A stretch of DNA of 64,000 nucleotides from Armatimonadota bacterium. GTDB lineage: Bacteria > Armatimonadota > Fimbriimonadia > Fimbriimonadales > Fimbriimonadaceae. The notes beneath the pieces were generated by a model that was not told the origin of the DNA, ran no database searches, and saw only the letters and a list, made by a program, of their open reading frames with translations. The position numbers were made by a program, and so were the translations under genes. Position 1 is the stretch's first letter; every line of letters starts with the position of its first letter. The stretch covers positions 267,638-331,637 of the forward strand of contig JAFDWU010000002.1 in assembly GCA_018268315.1 (NCBI GenBank), written 5' to 3'. Shown here in pieces: positions 19,060 through 27,646 of this stretch.

Positions 19060-20073
19060 ATGAAGATGACCACAAATAGCATCTTTACAGTTTTCGGGAT
19101 CGCAGCTCTCCTCTACGGAGTAGCGCACTCGAGCGAAATGAGCGCCCCACCCATAAAGCCGCACGCAGCAGCTGACCTGTTTGCCCGCGCTCATCCAGAC
19201 GATTTCACCGGCGACAAATCTTGTGCAGAGTGCCACCCAAGCACCGTGAACGAGTTTGCCGCATCGCCCCATGCCGCATTTATGCAAGACCCGAAACTTC
19301 CGGTCGAGCAGCGCGGTTGCGAAGGGTGCCATGGCCCAGGCAAGATCCATCAGGCGGATAAGGATGCCCAAGTTATCTCCTTTACGAAGATGACTCCGGC
19401 TGAATCCAATGCCGCCTGTCTGCGATGCCACGCTCAAACGATGAGCGAAAGCCACTGGAAGCGAACGGAACACGCTCGCGCCGGTCTGGCTTGCGTTACT
19501 TGCCACCAGATCCATCCGAGCGATGAAAAGACGCGCGAGCCGAACGCTCCGAATAAGGGCGACGTGACCGACGCCAAGACGAATTTCTTCGTCGCGCGCA
19601 GATCGCCAAAGGCAATGCTCAAGTCAGAGGAAGCGCAGCTTTGCGCGCAGTGCCACGCAACCCAGGCTGCGGAATTCAAGCAAGCATTCCATCACCCAGT
19701 GCCGGAAGGCCGAGTGGTGTGCAGTGATTGCCATACTCCGCACCCGAGTAAGGACTCAAAGGTCCGCGCAGGCGTGACTTATAAAGAGAAATGCGTGACG
19801 TGCCACAACGAGAAGGCCGGACCGTTCGTGTTCGAACACGACCCGGTGGCCGGATCAAGCGGTACCGGATGTCTTGAGTGCCATCGACCGCACGGCGCAA
19901 ACAATCCTATGCTCCTCGTGGCGACAACACGTGGGCTCTGCGGACAATGCCACACCGATAAGTTGGCATCATCCCACCACCCAGGCCAGACCTGCTGGTC
20001 GGCGGGCTGCCACGTCTCAACCCACGGCAGCAACATCAACCCAGACTTCCTAGATCAGTCAGGAGGACGATAA
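19060..20073 (+). CDS. Periplasmic decaheme c-type cytochrome (MtrA/DmsE-like)
   Basis: 337 aa, the size of Shewanella MtrA. N-terminal signal-type hydrophobic segment (about residues 8-22). Nine CXXCH heme sites: starts at 55, 87, 120, 145, 195, 221, 245, 271, 294, and a tenth of unusual CX4CH form (CWSAGCH, 312-318). Several further His residues sit where distal ligands are needed. Such cytochromes sit in the periplasmic mouth of an outer-membrane barrel and pass electrons through it. The next gene starts on the last base of the stop (TAATG) and encodes a probable barrel, followed by an octaheme lipoprotein, so this is the A subunit of a porin-cytochrome conduit. Direction of electron flow and final partner unknown. 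Confidence 0.9.
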   Translation: MKMTTNSIFTVFGIAALLYGVAHSSEMSAPPIKPHAAADLFARAHPDDFTGDKSCAECHPSTVNEFAASPHAAFMQDPKLPVEQRGCEGCHGPGKIHQADKDAQVISFTKMTPAESNAACLRCHAQTMSESHWKRTEHARAGLACVTCHQIHPSDEKTREPNAPNKGDVTDAKTNFFVARRSPKAMLKSEEAQLCAQCHATQAAEFKQAFHHPVPEGRVVCSDCHTPHPSKDSKVRAGVTYKEKCVTCHNEKAGPFVFEHDPVAGSSGTGCLECHRPHGANNPMLLVATTRGLCGQCHTDKLASSHHPGQTCWSAGCHVSTHGSNINPDFLDQSGGR

Positions 20074-21761
20074 TGCGAGTCTTCTCCAATCGTTTTCTGC
20101 CTCTAACGGCCCTCTTGCTAGTCTTTAGCAGCGCTCTCGCCCAGGACGATACGAAACCTGCCGACCCGGCTAAAGATGCAAAGGAGACGCCGCAGGCAAC
20201 CGAACCGGCCAAAGATGCAAAAGAAGCTAAAGACACTAAAGAGGCTTCTGAAGAGCCAAAGCTCCTCTGGAACAGCATCACCTTTGGTCTGAATAGCTTC
20301 CGATACTCCGGCTCGGACCGCAGGCTTCAGCAGTATGCGAAGCTGGACGGCCCACCGACGCTCAGCGAGCTAGTCATCGGAATGCCAGCGCGAACAATGT
20401 CTCCATTTGTACGCGCGGTGCTTCGCGGGAACCCCGGGCAGGACCGAGTTGGCGAACTCTACATGGCCTTCCCAAGCCTCCATGCAATCGTGAAGGCGGA
20501 AGGATCGACCTCGGACTACAACAACACGGCGTGGGAACCGACCAAGACAAGTCTTGACGACGTTGCCAAGATCTACTGGGAGCAGACTCTTGGGCCAACC
20601 ACCGGCGGATTCGTGATGTGGCGACGGGATATCCAGGACGAGAACTTCGTTCCGCCCTTCCCCTCAAACCGAATTGTTACCTCGACATACGCGGCGAGCA
20701 TCGAGAACCGGAATAAGTCCGGCAGTATGGGCGCATCGTTTATCGAAAGTCGCCTAAATGACGAAAGCGGCGCGCTACCAACCACCGCTCGGCATACCGG
20801 CAACTTTGAAGCAACGATGCAATCTGGTGCGCTAGATTTGCGCGCAACTGCTTCTTATACGAAGATTCAACAGCGCGCGCAGGGTGATACGGGTATCGGA
20901 TCACTTGGGTTCTCCGGCGTATTTGACCTCAACGAGCTGTCTTCTCTTGAAATTGACGCTTGCGGAGTTCACTACAGCTTAGGCGACGTCACGCAAAGCG
21001 CGTACCTCAAACAGGACACCAGCTTTGGCGCCCGCTACACCACTTTCTGGGAAGAAGGAAGCCTCAATGTAGGATTCCATCATCGAGAAGTGCAGCGTAT
21101 GCGCCAGGATCACTCGTACGTTGACGTTCCCAAATGGAACACGTACGATTTTCGCCTTAAGCAACGCCTTAGCCCGACATGGCGCCTCACCGTCCGCGGA
21201 ACGTGGGACCGAGCTCTCGCTCTCGCGACATACCAAACGGACGACCCAAGGCAGCTCGCCTGGGACGACAGGGCCATGCTGACGGCGAAGCTGGAAGGTG
21301 GAACGCCAAGCCTGGTTTCCTACCTCTCCTACACCTATCGACTTCGACAAAACTTCGGAAGAAACGTGTCCATTGGTTGGAATAATTTCACCCTTGGCGC
21401 GAGCAAAGACATCAGCCCCAAGCTGTCCGTATTTGCCGAAGGCTCGCAAGATACGTTTGCGATTGGAGATGATCCGCTTAACACGGCTGATCCATTGGGG
21501 GCATATTTCCCGAAGTCCGTATCGCTAACAACCGGAGCAACGTTCGTGCGCTCGCCGCGTGAAAGTTTCTCGGGGGTGATGCAGTATTTCCTGACTGACA
21601 ACTGGGTGGGCAACCAAGTAACGCTGAGCTATCGGCGCAGCCTGAGTGCAGCAAACAGTTTCGACGTAAGTTTAGCGCCTTGGAGGATGTCCGACCGGCT
21701 TTACGGCCTGACGGGTTACGACGCGACGCTGTTTTCGCTTCGATTTACAACGAAATTCTGA
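20073..21761 (+). CDS. Outer-membrane beta-barrel porin of the cytochrome conduit (MtrB/PioB-like)
   Basis: 562 aa. Signal peptide (LTALLLVFSSALA, cleavage near 23), then an Ala/Lys/Glu-rich linker (about residues 30-63) with a repeated PAKDAKE unit. Residues from about 64 onward alternate hydrophobic and polar residues in beta-strand fashion with aromatic girdles, and the protein ends in RFTTKF with the terminal Phe preferred by BAM for outer-membrane barrels. MtrB is larger (about 700 aa), so this is a shorter barrel, and homology to MtrB is inferred from gene order rather than from a visible motif. The Shewanella CXXC near the mature N-terminus is absent. Translationally coupled to the decaheme gene (TAATG). 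Confidence 0.75.
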   Translation: MRVFSNRFLPLTALLLVFSSALAQDDTKPADPAKDAKETPQATEPAKDAKEAKDTKEASEEPKLLWNSITFGLNSFRYSGSDRRLQQYAKLDGPPTLSELVIGMPARTMSPFVRAVLRGNPGQDRVGELYMAFPSLHAIVKAEGSTSDYNNTAWEPTKTSLDDVAKIYWEQTLGPTTGGFVMWRRDIQDENFVPPFPSNRIVTSTYAASIENRNKSGSMGASFIESRLNDESGALPTTARHTGNFEATMQSGALDLRATASYTKIQQRAQGDTGIGSLGFSGVFDLNELSSLEIDACGVHYSLGDVTQSAYLKQDTSFGARYTTFWEEGSLNVGFHHREVQRMRQDHSYVDVPKWNTYDFRLKQRLSPTWRLTVRGTWDRALALATYQTDDPRQLAWDDRAMLTAKLEGGTPSLVSYLSYTYRLRQNFGRNVSIGWNNFTLGASKDISPKLSVFAEGSQDTFAIGDDPLNTADPLGAYFPKSVSLTTGATFVRSPRESFSGVMQYFLTDNWVGNQVTLSYRRSLSAANSFDVSLAPWRMSDRLYGLTGYDATLFSLRFTTKF

Positions 21762-21783
21762 ATTCAATAAAGGACTTATCGAC

Positions 21784-23325
21784 ATGAAAATGAGGACAAC
21801 AATGAGAAAGCGATGGCTCTTGACACTTATTGCAGCGGTGCCTGCGGCCGCAGCAATTCTCACCTTGGAAAGCTGCGGCGGCGTTGGAGGGCCGACCGGA
21901 CCCGGTGGGGGAGGAGGAGGCGGTACGTCTTCAACCTTCCTAGCACTGCTTTCCCCTGCTCAGCAAGCTGCAACCTATGTAGGTGTGGCTAAATGCGCTG
22001 AGTGCCACTCGACAGACTCCGCCAAGGTTCACGGCGGGGCGAAGCTGGCCAGCTACAAGGGCAGCGTAGCTAACCCCAAGCTGTCAATTATCGACCAGTG
22101 GAAGCAGACCATGCACTACCAGAAGGGTGTGACCTGCGAGAACTGCCACGGGCCGGGAAGTCTGCATGTTGCAGATCCGACAAACAAGGACAAGGTTCTA
22201 ACCTACGCCCATGATTTTGCCGATGCAACCCAGGCGCCTTCGAATCCCGAAGGAATCACCTCTCCGACGGTGTGCGCTCAGTGCCACGGCCCAACAGTTG
22301 ACCAGTGGAAATTCGCGAAGCACTCGCTTCTGCTGACCACTCCAGTTGACGAGGCGATAACAAATCCGGCGACCTACGGTCGTGCGAGCCGATGCATCGC
22401 TTGCCACAGCGGTCTCTTCAGGACTCAAATCTATGAAGAAGGCGACATCAATGCGATCAGTGATGCCGATATCTCGAAAATCGCAAGCAATACGTTGCAC
22501 AAAGTTCCCTACGTGGCAACCTGTACAACGTGTCATGATGCGCACTCGGTTACCGGCAACCTGACGGCATCTGGACAGGAAGCTCAACTCTATCATCCGG
22601 TTGCCAACTTCGACCCGACCAACGTTGGCCCAGGTCAGACGCCTGATACGTTCACGCACTTCAACCAGATTTGTGCCCAGTGCCATAACGGTCGCGGCAC
22701 CGATCCGGGCGATGCCAAGCTGAACACAAGCACCGCGCGACCGGGAATGCACTATAGCAATCAGTACAACATGCTGATGGGCGTAGGCGCAGTCGACAAC
22801 GGCAACAAGGGAGAAGTCACTCACGGTTCGACCGCTGGACAATGCTCGCAATGCCACATGGCAGGCGGAAACCACTCGTTCGTAGTCAGCTACGAAGGAT
22901 GCGCTCCGTGCCACAGCATTCCTGTTGCAGCCGCTAAGGTAGATACCGTACAGGCTCAAACTCTCAACCGACTGCTCCAGCTCAGGGCTGATCTCAGTTC
23001 CTGGTCGCAGGCAATCTTGCACGATCCGGATCTGTGGGACTACACGTCCTTCATCACCGCGCTCGGCAAGACTCCTCCTAACCAGAGCCTGATCCCGATC
23101 GGCGTGAAGCGAGCTCGCTACAACTACTACTTCATCGTGAACTGCGGAGACTACGGAGTCCACAACTACAAGTATGTTGACAACCTGCTCACGATCGCTG
23201 AGAACAACATCCCGGGACACGCACAGGCCCAGGGTAAAGACTACAACGGTCTGACAACCGCTCAGAAGAAGGCTATCATTGAAGCCGATCGAGCCAAGTC
23301 AAAGAATGACCCGGGAGTGGAGTAA
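21784..23325 (+). CDS. Surface octaheme c-type cytochrome lipoprotein
   Basis: 513 aa. A lipoprotein signal with Cys31 (TLESC) followed by a long Gly-rich linker, then eight CXXCH heme sites starting at 71, 118, 164, 204, 247, 297, 354 and 373. The last 130 residues are heme-free, helical, and contain the GVHNYKY segment with a helix after it, as in other multiheme cytochromes of the pentaheme/octaheme group. As the third gene after a decaheme cytochrome and a barrel, it is the likely outer-face electron carrier, taking the place of MtrC/OmcA though unrelated in length (MtrC has ten hemes). AAGGA lies about 9 nt before the start. Electron acceptor unknown. Confidence 0.88.
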   Translation: MKMRTTMRKRWLLTLIAAVPAAAAILTLESCGGVGGPTGPGGGGGGGTSSTFLALLSPAQQAATYVGVAKCAECHSTDSAKVHGGAKLASYKGSVANPKLSIIDQWKQTMHYQKGVTCENCHGPGSLHVADPTNKDKVLTYAHDFADATQAPSNPEGITSPTVCAQCHGPTVDQWKFAKHSLLLTTPVDEAITNPATYGRASRCIACHSGLFRTQIYEEGDINAISDADISKIASNTLHKVPYVATCTTCHDAHSVTGNLTASGQEAQLYHPVANFDPTNVGPGQTPDTFTHFNQICAQCHNGRGTDPGDAKLNTSTARPGMHYSNQYNMLMGVGAVDNGNKGEVTHGSTAGQCSQCHMAGGNHSFVVSYEGCAPCHSIPVAAAKVDTVQAQTLNRLLQLRADLSSWSQAILHDPDLWDYTSFITALGKTPPNQSLIPIGVKRARYNYYFIVNCGDYGVHNYKYVDNLLTIAENNIPGHAQAQGKDYNGLTTAQKKAIIEADRAKSKNDPGVE

Positions 23326-23401: not shown

Positions 23402-25780
23402 ATGGAACGAATGACGCCCCCCGCCTGGTCTTTATGGGTCGGTGATCTCGGCCGCTCATCAATCATCTTTGTCGCCGGGCTGTTCCTGGCGGTAACCCTC
23501 GCCCTAATCTTCTCGAAGAACAACGAAAAGCTACAGCGCTGGTGCTGGCGAGGTTTTGCCCTAGGATGCGTTGGCATCCTTTTCTCTTTTGTTTGCCTCG
23601 CTATTCTCTTTGCCAACAATCGCTTTGAATACGAATACATTTGGGGCCACGGCGACCTCAAGAACGCAATCCAATACCGAATCGCGGGAATCTGGTCTGG
23701 CCAGCAAGGCAGTTTCCTGCTGTGGGCCTCTGCATCCGCCGTTTTTGGGCTCTTGACCTCTTACCGGATGGCGCAGTATCGCCGCTGGTTTACCGTCGCT
23801 TACGGAACGTTCCTTGGCAGCCTTGCAGGAATGCTGGTAGCCGAATCTCCCTTTAAGCTCAACTTAGTGGATGGGCAGCCGATCGTTCCTCTCGACGGCG
23901 CCGGCCTCGCCCCTTCCCTTCAGAACTATTGGGTAACGATCCACCCGCCGACGATTTTCCTCGGATTCGGATCGCTTACCGTGCTATTTGCCGCGGCATT
24001 TGCGGCGCTAACCATCCGCGATTACACGGGTTGGGTCAAGATTATTCGCCCTTGGGCGATCCTCTCAACCGGTCTCGTTGGCCTTGGCCTATGTATGGGC
24101 GGCCTGTGGGCTTACGAAACGCTTGGCTGGGGCGGCTTCTGGATGTGGGATCCCGTTGAGAACGTCAGCTTCATTCCTTGGTGCTTCGTAGCTGCGTTCG
24201 TTCATGGCCTCATCGTTCAAGTTTCGCGCGGCAAGTGGCTGATGGGCAACTTGCTGATGGGCGCGCTGCCATTCATCACCTTCGTGTACGGCACGTTCCT
24301 GACTCGCTCTGGATTCCTCGCCGACAGCAGCGTCCACAGCTTCGCGGAGATGGACCACAGCGCTCTCAAGCTCCTGATTGGCCTCATGGCGGTTTCCACC
24401 CTCGGTTTCCTCGGACTCTGGTTCACCCGAATGTTCCAGTTCCGCGCTCAAACGCCGGATCGAGAAGAGTCGGGACTCAGCCGTGAGGGCTTCTACCGTT
24501 TTGGCATTCTGATGCTTTCAATGCTTGGCATGATGGCGCTAATCGGCATGAGCGTTCCGCTCATCATGGCGCTGGAAGGACGAAAGCCGAAGGTCGTTGA
24601 GGAAGGCCTCTACCATCTGGTTCTGCCTTATCTCTTCGTTCCCCTCATGCTTGGCATGACCATCGCCCCATTCGTCTCCTGGCGCGGTATGCGCTTCCGC
24701 GATGTGCTTGGCAAGCTTCACACGCCGTTCACTTTCGCAATCGCCTTTACGGGCGTAGCGCTGCTGCTCATCGTCCGCACTTCGTTTGGCAAACTCATTG
24801 ATCTTGCTCCGGTAATCAATCTGCCGGGCGGGAACAAGATGGACGGCAAGGTATGGATGCTGGTCCTTGCCTTCATCTGTATCTTCGCGATCTGCGCAAA
24901 CTTGGTCCGTCTTTACGAAAGCCGAAAGCAGATTAAGCTCGGCGCAGGCGCGTTCCTAGCCCACATCGGGGTTGCGATTCTCATGGCTGGCCTAATCCTC
25001 TCGCGCGGCTACGAGCGCCAGGGCGATGCCGTTGCAATGGGACAGCATCCCGCCCAAATTCTGGACTACCGTGTTCAGTATCAGGGCCTGACCTCGACAA
25101 TGGATGATCGCGAAAACCGAGCGAAGTTCACGATTACCGATACCACTGGCAAGCAGATATTCACCGCGATGCCGAGCGTTTACAAGGTTGTCCTTCCCGA
25201 TGGCCAAGAAAACGTGATGGTTTGGCCATATATCCACCGGACCGTGTTTAACGACATCTACGTATCTATCCGACCGCCGGAGCGAATGCAAACAGACCCG
25301 TTCTCGCTGGCGCCCGGCGAGACAAAAGACTTTGGCAAGTTCTCCCTCACCTATCTATCCATGGTACGCAAGGGCGAACCTGGGCAGCCGGGAACCATGT
25401 TTGGCGCCCAGCTTCGAGTAGATCAGCCCGGTGCTAAGAGCCGCACGATCACTCCGATGATGGAGCTTGGCGGTGGCGGCCCGGTTCCTCACCCGGCAAG
25501 ATTGGATGACGTTGAGGTTGTAATGGATGGCATGAATGCAGCCGACAGATCGGTAACCTTAAAGCTGCAAACGGATGATCTCGTGTTTCCAATTCAGATT
25601 TTCCATAAGCCGTTCACAAGCTTTGTATGGTTTGGAGCAGCGCTCATGGCGATTGCCGCCGGAATGTCTGCTCTCTATCGAAGGCCAGCCGTCGTAGACG
25701 AGCCGGTCGTCAGATTAGAGGAGACTTCGACGGAAATTGACGAGGCCGATCCAGAAATAGCAACTAAGGAGGTTATTTAA
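23402..25780 (+). CDS. ccmF: Cytochrome c-type biogenesis protein CcmF (heme lyase subunit)
   Basis: 792 aa, many membrane helices. The WWD domain is at about 243-260 (GWGGFWMWDPVENVSFIPW; the usual second Trp is Phe here). NYWVTIHPPTIFLGFGSL (176-193) and ILSTGLVGLGLCMGGLWAYE before it are standard CcmF parts, and FVYGTFLTRSGFLADSSVHSFA is the periplasmic His loop. The C-terminal 250 residues form a periplasmic domain. CcmF moves heme from holo-CcmE to apocytochromes. It follows the octaheme gene and has its own region between. The next gene, a monoheme cytochrome, starts after two bases. Confidence 0.95.
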   Translation: MERMTPPAWSLWVGDLGRSSIIFVAGLFLAVTLALIFSKNNEKLQRWCWRGFALGCVGILFSFVCLAILFANNRFEYEYIWGHGDLKNAIQYRIAGIWSGQQGSFLLWASASAVFGLLTSYRMAQYRRWFTVAYGTFLGSLAGMLVAESPFKLNLVDGQPIVPLDGAGLAPSLQNYWVTIHPPTIFLGFGSLTVLFAAAFAALTIRDYTGWVKIIRPWAILSTGLVGLGLCMGGLWAYETLGWGGFWMWDPVENVSFIPWCFVAAFVHGLIVQVSRGKWLMGNLLMGALPFITFVYGTFLTRSGFLADSSVHSFAEMDHSALKLLIGLMAVSTLGFLGLWFTRMFQFRAQTPDREESGLSREGFYRFGILMLSMLGMMALIGMSVPLIMALEGRKPKVVEEGLYHLVLPYLFVPLMLGMTIAPFVSWRGMRFRDVLGKLHTPFTFAIAFTGVALLLIVRTSFGKLIDLAPVINLPGGNKMDGKVWMLVLAFICIFAICANLVRLYESRKQIKLGAGAFLAHIGVAILMAGLILSRGYERQGDAVAMGQHPAQILDYRVQYQGLTSTMDDRENRAKFTITDTTGKQIFTAMPSVYKVVLPDGQENVMVWPYIHRTVFNDIYVSIRPPERMQTDPFSLAPGETKDFGKFSLTYLSMVRKGEPGQPGTMFGAQLRVDQPGAKSRTITPMMELGGGGPVPHPARLDDVEVVMDGMNAADRSVTLKLQTDDLVFPIQIFHKPFTSFVWFGAALMAIAAGMSALYRRPAVVDEPVVRLEETSTEIDEADPEIATKEVI

Positions 25781-25782
25781 CA

Positions 25783-26109
25783 ATGAAACGACTGTCAATG
25801 ATAGTGATCTTGTGTAGCATTGCCGTCATCGCTGACGCGCTACCAAAGTTCAGCGCGACGTTTAAGGAGCACTACAAGGTAGCTAAGGGCAGCAACCTTG
25901 ACAAGGCTGGATGCATGCTGTGCCACACAAGCCCGAAGGGCAAGGCGTTAAACGCTTATGGCACTGATCTTAAGGCTCAGCTAAAAGCTGCCGGCTCCAA
26001 GAAGCTCAGCAGCGACATGCTTGTGAAGGTAGAGCCGATGGACTCTACGAAGACCGGCATGACGAATGGCCAGAAGATCAAGAAGGATATTAACCCTGGC
26101 ATCAAATAA
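25783..26109 (+). CDS. Small exported monoheme c-type cytochrome
   Basis: 108 aa. Signal peptide (LSMIVILCSIAVIADA), then one CMLCH heme site at 44-48. The rest is Lys-rich with few hydrophobic residues, so a small soluble periplasmic cytochrome is likely. AAGGAGG directly precedes the ATG, 2 bases after ccmF, so it is co-transcribed with ccmF. The heme motif sits in the pattern ...F..HYKVAKGSNLDKAGCMLC, and the same pattern (and heme position) recurs in the N-terminus of the convergent membrane fusion protein at 26180-26968. No family name recognised. Confidence 0.82.
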   Translation: MKRLSMIVILCSIAVIADALPKFSATFKEHYKVAKGSNLDKAGCMLCHTSPKGKALNAYGTDLKAQLKAAGSKKLSSDMLVKVEPMDSTKTGMTNGQKIKKDINPGIK

Positions 26110-26179: not shown

Positions 26180-26968
26180 CTAGTCGCCGTAAACGAAGCT
26201 GCCGCCAACGTGCCCGGCCCATGCAATTACGACGAAAGCGACCGCTGCAAGCACGTAATAGATCACCCGCTGGGCCGGTTTCATCTCGTCATGCTTGTGC
26301 ACTCGCACTGCCACCATGACCCACATAAGCACGGTGACAAAGATTGCCGCAAGCGAGTGCTTATAGATGATTCCCTTCCAAGGAACCTTAAGGAGCACAA
26401 GAGCCGCAAAGCCGGAGGCCAAGCCCCCTAAAGCGGTGAGAGCGGCGGCGGCAAGGTTGTACCAACCAGCATAGAGCAGCGTCTTCTGCTTGCGCACCAT
26501 GCCGACGAAATCCAAGGCAAGACCGGTAATCAAGAGCGCAATCGGAAAGTGGACAATCGCCGGGTGGAAGGCATTCTTGCCAAACACCTGACTCCACCAG
26601 CTCTTATGCGGCGGAGGTGTCTCTGGAGCGCTGTTAGCTGCAGTTGAAACGCCGGGAGGAAGGTCCTTCTTGATGTGATCGAGGTTGGAACTGCCATCGT
26701 TTGTTGCAGAGAGCGTTTCCACGGATGCGAGTACTCCCTCATCCATGTTCTCCTTCCCTAATTCGGCAAGCTTGCCCTTTAGCTGGCGGCCATAGGGGTT
26801 CAGCGAGTAGTCCTCCTCGGAGACATGGCAGATTGCGCATGACAGCGTTCCGAGCTTCGAGGAATCCTTGACGGAATACTTCTTTTGGAAGATGTCCAGG
26901 AATTCGGGCTTAGCCAAACAAGATGCTCCAAGCGCTAGGGCCAAAGCCGTCATCGAGAATCGCCTCAT
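26180..26968 (-). CDS. Monoheme cytochrome domain fused to DUF2231-like membrane domain
   Basis: 262 aa. Signal-like N-terminus, then a monoheme domain with CAICH at 44-48, at exactly the same position and in the same setting (PEF...F...YSVKDSSKLG) as the neighbouring small cytochrome. A Pro-rich linker (SAPETPPPHKSWW) follows, then four membrane helices starting with FHPAIVHFPIALLITGLALD, the HP-x3-HFPIAL signature of DUF2231 proteins. It ends GGSFVYGD. The combination looks like a membrane-anchored electron-transfer protein that could link a quinol or other membrane carrier to periplasmic cytochromes; this is inference. Confidence 0.75.
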   Translation of the reverse strand: MRRFSMTALALALGASCLAKPEFLDIFQKKYSVKDSSKLGTLSCAICHVSEEDYSLNPYGRQLKGKLAELGKENMDEGVLASVETLSATNDGSSNLDHIKKDLPPGVSTAANSAPETPPPHKSWWSQVFGKNAFHPAIVHFPIALLITGLALDFVGMVRKQKTLLYAGWYNLAAAALTALGGLASGFAALVLLKVPWKGIIYKHSLAAIFVTVLMWVMVAVRVHKHDEMKPAQRVIYYVLAAVAFVVIAWAGHVGGSFVYGD

Positions 26969-27274: not shown

Positions 27275-27646
27275 ATGACGAAAGGTGCTCTAATCTCCAC
27301 GATTCTTGGCATCGGCGCAGCCGCTGGCCTATGCACCGTGTTTGTAAAGGTTTCTTCCCCCTACGTGACGGTAGCGGATGCCCAGAAGGGTGGCAGCGAT
27401 GTTCACGTGATGGGCAAGGTTGTTGACCACACGCTCCAGCAGGGTGCGCGTGAAGCGAAATTCACCATCACCGATGAAAGCGGCCAGATGCCGGTGATTT
27501 ACACGGGCCCGCCCCTCACCTCGCTTGCATCAGCTCCTAAGGTGGTCGTCATCGGCTCTTATGAGCAAGGCGTCTTCCACTCTGACAAGATGCTTGTGAA
27601 GTGTCCGTCCAAATACGAAGCGCAAAAGGGCGGCGGCGGAGCCTAG
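27275..27646 (+). CDS. ccmE: Cytochrome c biogenesis heme chaperone CcmE, CxxxY type
   Basis: 123 aa. N-terminal membrane anchor (LISTILGIGAAAGLCTVF), then a beta-barrel OB-like domain (VHVMGKVVDHTL ... AKFTITDESGQMPVIYTG PPL). The heme-binding site near the C-terminus reads VKCPSKYEAQ: Cys110 and Tyr114 form CXXXY, in place of the HXXXY motif of Escherichia coli CcmE (His130). CXXXY CcmE is known from Desulfovibrio and archaeal Ccm systems that lack CcmG and CcmH. The barrel is shorter than the usual 150-160 aa. It stands 12 bases after ccmD. Together with ccmABC at 43981-45927 it completes most of a Ccm system. Confidence 0.9.
   Translation: MTKGALISTILGIGAAAGLCTVFVKVSSPYVTVADAQKGGSDVHVMGKVVDHTLQQGAREAKFTITDESGQMPVIYTGPPLTSLASAPKVVVIGSYEQGVFHSDKMLVKCPSKYEAQKGGGGA

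Follow-up and report, generated by a model that had tools for sequence, protein, structure and literature searches.

Three adjoining genes in an Armatimonadota genome very probably encode an electron conduit across the outer membrane, in which an MtrAB-type core is combined with a different surface partner. The genes, designated A, B, and C (Table 1), are located in a 64,000-nucleotide stretch of DNA (the window) from a Fimbriimonadaceae genome of 2.8 Mb in nine contigs. An earlier note, made from the letters of the window, had described three coupled genes with the layout of a porin–cytochrome conduit. The open reading frames have the coordinates given there and all lie on the + strand; A and B share a single base (TAATG), preceded by an AGGAGG site, and 22 bases separate B from C. 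The conduit layout in Armatimonadota is likewise upheld, with an MtrA-family A and an MtrB-like B.

Table 1. Features of the conduit locus and its downstream neighbors (positions in the window).
Feature	Position	Strand	Description	Evidence or linkage
A	19060..20073	+	decaheme MtrA/DmsE-family periplasmic cytochrome, 337 aa	TIGR03508, 6r2q_A, heme motifs, conserved His
Tenth heme site of A	19993..20013	+	CWSAGCH (CX4CH)	aligned with MtrA heme A10
B	20073..21761	+	predicted outer-membrane barrel, MtrB-like fold, 562 aa, outside known sequence families	AF2, Foldseek, VIA
C	21784..23325	+	octaheme lipoprotein, OmhA/OcwA-NrfA-MccA superfamily, 513 aa	heme motifs, profile, fold
Lipobox of C	21865..21876	+	LESC, lipidated Cys 31	Cys and next Gly invariant in 22 relatives
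CcmF/NrfE-type heme lyase	23402..25780	+		PF16327, PF01578; linked in 14/24 loci
Small protein	25783-26109	+	one heme motif	linked to operon in 14 loci
Small protein	26180-26968	-	one heme motif, DUF2231 membrane domain	linked to operon in 14 loci
CcmE-type heme chaperone	27275..27646	+		PF03100 1.6e-15; linked in 7 loci

Cytochrome A scores 198.6 bits against TIGR03508 (the DmsE decaheme family), above the curated cut-off of 192.2, and matches the MtrA chain of the solved Mtr complex (6r2q_A) at 3e-31; both results support the conduit. (The PDB text for 6r2q_A carries the label cystathionine beta-synthase.) The sequence contains nine CXXCH motifs and one CX4CH, that is, ten heme sites, so the description of A as a decaheme cytochrome stands, except that its tenth motif is not CXXCH. 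Among 41 aligned A proteins, the ten heme-attachment histidines and eleven others are conserved, enough for ten bis-His hemes. Judged by its sequence, that is, by both the family score and the number of heme sites, A is a decaheme cytochrome of the DmsE/MtrA family. The CX4CH motif is found in 44/45 A proteins of the clade and sets A apart from MtrA and from the complete canonical decahemes of Armatimonadota, which have ten CXXCH motifs. It is the tenth heme that MtrA presents to its surface partner (PMC7198977); the unusual motif is therefore located where the partner differs, and the two changes may be causally tied. In one divergent locus (L088, genome G177, family f5), the tenth motif is CWNCH, a CXXCH, and this might mark the ancestral state.

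Barrel B lacks heme motifs and ends in ...RFTTKF, in agreement with the outer-membrane-type barrel ending in Phe that had been proposed. Its sequence, however, is unlike that of MtrB or PioB: B has no match up to E 1 in Pfam and NCBIfam, including PF11854 (MtrB_PioB) and TIGR03509; a PF11854 search across the phylum does not retrieve the B loci; neither phmmer nor profiles against the PDB detect kinship with MtrB; and hhalign of B with canonical MtrB from the phylum gives a probability of 2.7%. As a positive control, canonical Armatimonadota MtrB reaches 6r2q_B at 2e-17. B also has short loops and no CXXC.

The fold gives a different answer. An AlphaFold2 model of B, built from an alignment of 23 family members, has a pLDDT of 81.7 and contains 26 strands; a short helix connects strand 1 to strand 2, and strands 2–4 are short. 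The published MtrB barrel likewise consists of 26 strands; its strand 1–2 loop contains a small helix, and its first four strands are short (PMC7198977). With this model, Foldseek places 6r2q_B first (1.2e-12; runner-up 9e-9), and VIA gives Shewanella MtrB (6r2q_B) a Z of 25.4 at 3.1 A over 487 residues (runner-up Z 16.7). Thus, on the evidence of the model, B is MtrB by fold and a new family by sequence. The barrel had been called short; this is correct for its 562 residues, but the predicted number of strands is not smaller than in MtrB. The strand number, the helix after strand 1, and the lead of MtrB over the other solved barrels all support the conduit, and the clear structural match over the full length of B counts against a general porin.

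Lipoprotein C contains eight CXXCH motifs and a lipobox, as the earlier note had it, and a lipobox is present in every relative examined (LQSC, LEGC, and similar variants). The suggestion that C is the equivalent of MtrC/OmcA with eight hemes in place of ten is not supported. In profile searches of the PDB, C matches 6qvm (2e-16) and OcwA (6i5b; 1e-14), followed by MccA and NrfA; 6qvm is an S-layer cytochrome with 11 hemes from Carboxydothermus ferrireducens, which we take to be OmhA. The fold model of C is weak (pLDDT 61.7); using it, Foldseek ranks two OcwA chains first (3.8e-4), and VIA ranks 6qvm (Z 10.1) and then OcwA (Z 9.4). No MtrC/OmcA structure appears when C is searched by profile against the PDB (E <= 1) or in its Foldseek and VIA lists, which derive from the weak model; such absences are no proof.

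Among the family searches that the earlier note had proposed, that for DmsE/MtrA (TIGR03508) is positive, and those for MtrB/PioB (PF11854, TIGR03509) and OmcA/MtrC (TIGR03507) are negative: TIGR03507 fails to match C of the window at E 1 or below and matches 1/22 C relatives weakly. PF22113, a model of the MtrC/MtrF heme domain, passes its cut-off on the window's C (39.5 vs 30 bits); short heme-rich models cross-match widely. By family model and heme count, C falls outside the OmcA/MtrC family (TIGR03507 fails; eight hemes rather than ten), and by heme count it falls outside OcwA proper (eight hemes rather than nine). Profile and fold, the latter from the weak model, agree that C is a member of the OmhA/OcwA-NrfA-MccA superfamily. 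Its nearest solved kin in both comparisons, OmhA (6QVM; 11 hemes) and OcwA (Thermincola potens, 6I5B; nine hemes), are cell-surface multiheme cytochromes of Gram-positive iron reducers; that C is a lipoprotein related to these surface reductases also supports the conduit.

The superfamily of C includes enzymes of the nitrogen and sulfur cycles, so A and B might feed C as a surface enzyme for a soluble substrate (e.g., nitrite or hydroxylamine). Such an arrangement would resemble Shewanella DmsEFAB, in which a decaheme–barrel pair feeds a terminal oxidoreductase on the cell surface; in that system, however, the terminal partner is a molybdoenzyme, whereas here it is a multiheme lipoprotein. OcwA slowly reduces nitrite and turns over hydroxylamine (PMC6703420). 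We nevertheless regard an enzymatic C as improbable: the lipid Cys and the eight heme sites are invariant in the aligned C proteins (22/22), as are eight further His and no more, and CXXCK is found in none of these 22. With one spare invariant His for each heme, no open heme is apparent; C may thus have no counterpart of the two high-spin hemes of OcwA, which have no distal ligand. Judged from its sequence, C is more probably an electron relay in which every heme is six-coordinate than a catalytic enzyme, and such a relay fits the conduit.

The three genes are linked across the phylum. B is present in 63 and C in 61 of 291 Armatimonadota genomes, and the two occur together in 57 (13.2 expected); they are adjacent in 55 of these, the matches in the other two being on separate contigs. 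A is directly upstream of B wherever the contig extends, with few exceptions. The named carriers are Fimbriimonadaceae and other Armatimonadota. Because the gene order recurs phylum-wide and B and C co-occur far above expectation, chance is excluded as the source of the layout. This bears on the reading in which there is no conduit and an unrelated porin lies by accident between two cytochromes of the periplasm, A and C. The profile of B does match general porins weakly and bacterial lipoproteins may face the periplasm, but it is MtrB, and not a general porin, that fits B end to end, and the genes are linked in many families; we consider this reading very improbable. The two outcomes named in the earlier note as speaking against a conduit, no predicted barrel for B or no barrel partner in relatives, did not appear.

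In a tree of the concatenated A, B, and C sequences, nine families require 8 label changes, the minimum possible, with the placement of two long branches (f5 and f24) unsure. Since the tree tracks the taxonomic families, the system appears to be ancient and to have been passed on mostly by vertical descent within Armatimonadota; this family-consistent descent, together with the conserved linkage, is a further argument for the conduit. A plasmid search found one distant MtrA only, and a DNA pattern search with a double heme motif gave no match. Outside the phylum, distribution was assessed by one pattern-based scan, in which all loci look Armatimonadota; wider occurrence is possible. One record titled Methanoregulaceae archaeon (L032, JADZEW010000016.1) carries a Fimbriimonadaceae-type operon nearly identical to that of L031 and is probably a mislabelled bin.

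In the proposed conduit, quinol would be oxidized at the inner membrane, and the electrons would pass to the first hemes of A. A, inserted in the predicted 26-strand barrel B like MtrA in MtrB, would carry them to lipid-anchored C; C, located on the outer face, would deliver them to an extracellular acceptor that may be a mineral, a humic substance, or a redox protein of another cell. An aerobic heterotroph would gain in this way an electron sink under oxygen shortage. The genome encodes a haem-copper oxidase, and a search of it for RuBisCO found none; these features favor outward flow, which we consider probable, and, together with candidate quinol dehydrogenases, are in accord with a conduit.

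The same conduit might be run inward, as for Mto/Pio, with Fe(II), a cathode, or a partner cell as the electron donor. The MtrAB homologues PioAB and MtoAB, for which inward operation is known or proposed, form no separate clade (PMC8805035), and in liposomes multiheme conduits can run in either direction (PMC7198977). However, RuBisCO is absent from the genome (other carbon-fixation routes being outside that search), and the nearest solved kin of C are surface cytochromes of iron reduction. Furthermore, C is kept in nearly all of the loci, whereas Mto/Pio systems are usually without a surface cytochrome. Inward flow is, in our judgment, unlikely.

Several genes could supply the remaining functions of an outward conduit. 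The CcmF/NrfE-type lyase downstream of C could serve heme attachment. Elsewhere in the genome (C4, L065:5783-10152), a set encoding NrfD, an FeS protein, and a tetraheme protein lies beside, and divergent from, a NapC-like hexaheme; from their sequences, the hexaheme or the tetraheme–FeS–NrfD set could be the quinol dehydrogenase. In several relatives, a CbcL-like protein that combines six hemes with a cytochrome b561 domain is encoded near the operon (L031:8211-10196, L032:15784-17757, L042:15847-17691, and L052:5359-7338) and is a candidate inner-membrane quinone partner; it is absent from the window's own genome, and this rules it out as an obligate partner. The genome also encodes four secretins, two with three N domains each, so a type II-like export route for C is conceivable. 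Several points count against a conduit: B and MtrB show no detectable relation in sequence, the fold of C is weakly modelled, the quinol dehydrogenase candidate is unlinked to the operon, and the CbcL-like protein of relatives is missing from the genome.

Compared with known systems, the locus shares with Shewanella MtrCAB (6R2Q), MtoAB, and PioAB a DmsE/MtrA decaheme and adjoining genes and, with the MtrCAB barrel, the 26 strands (predicted for B) and the helix after strand 1; it departs from the Mtr systems in its surface cytochrome, which has eight hemes and belongs to a different superfamily. Clustered mtrCAB has been surveyed and was reported from Proteobacteria, Acidobacteria, and Gemmatimonadetes only (PMC8805035). 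For Armatimonadota, the papers searched contain a single precedent, MtoAB-like genes in a MAG (Katase MAG mg024) of another class, UBA5829 (PMC9671151). Other families of the phylum carry a separate canonical MtrAB-type pair, a PF11854 barrel with an adjoining decaheme (L054-L058; genomes G217, G220, G060, G226, and G229), and the UBA5829 pair is probably this one. The canonical pairs and these MtoAB-like genes share with our locus the decaheme, a large barrel, and the phylum; unlike B, the L054 barrel matches PF11854 at 4e-103 and 6r2q_B at 2e-17 by sequence. Armatimonadota therefore have two kinds of conduit. The MtrA family of A was known; what is new is the predicted MtrB fold of a barrel from an unrecognized sequence family, together with the surface partner from the OmhA/OcwA side.

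If the conduit is real, it has been overlooked in much of a phylum from hot springs, lakes, and anammox reactors. Sequence models of MtrB miss B, so similar barrels may hide elsewhere, and the pairing of an MtrAB-type core with a surface reductase of Gram-positive type suggests that such cores can exchange their surface partners. OmhA and OcwA are found in monoderm hosts, which have no outer membrane, whereas C is a lipoprotein encoded beside a barrel. Armatimonadota might have kept an ancient arrangement of diderm Bacillati ancestors, a conduit capped by an OmhA/OcwA-type reductase, from which monoderm Bacillota lost the outer membrane and the barrel and retained the reductase; we regard this scenario as improbable. 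The pairing seen at the locus offers a way to test how extracellular respiration evolved as the outer membrane was lost.

Membrane-embedded multiheme cytochromes of unassigned function have been described in Armatimonadota from hot springs (PMC11788075). For HRBIN16, multiheme cytochromes but no MtrAB-type conduit are reported in the passages of PMC9671151 consulted here; the HRBIN16 lineage carries the A-B-C operon (L049). Loci of this type (lineage f19; L043, L044, L048, L049, and L050) encode an additional octaheme lipoprotein, with a YGCGG lipobox, between B and C.
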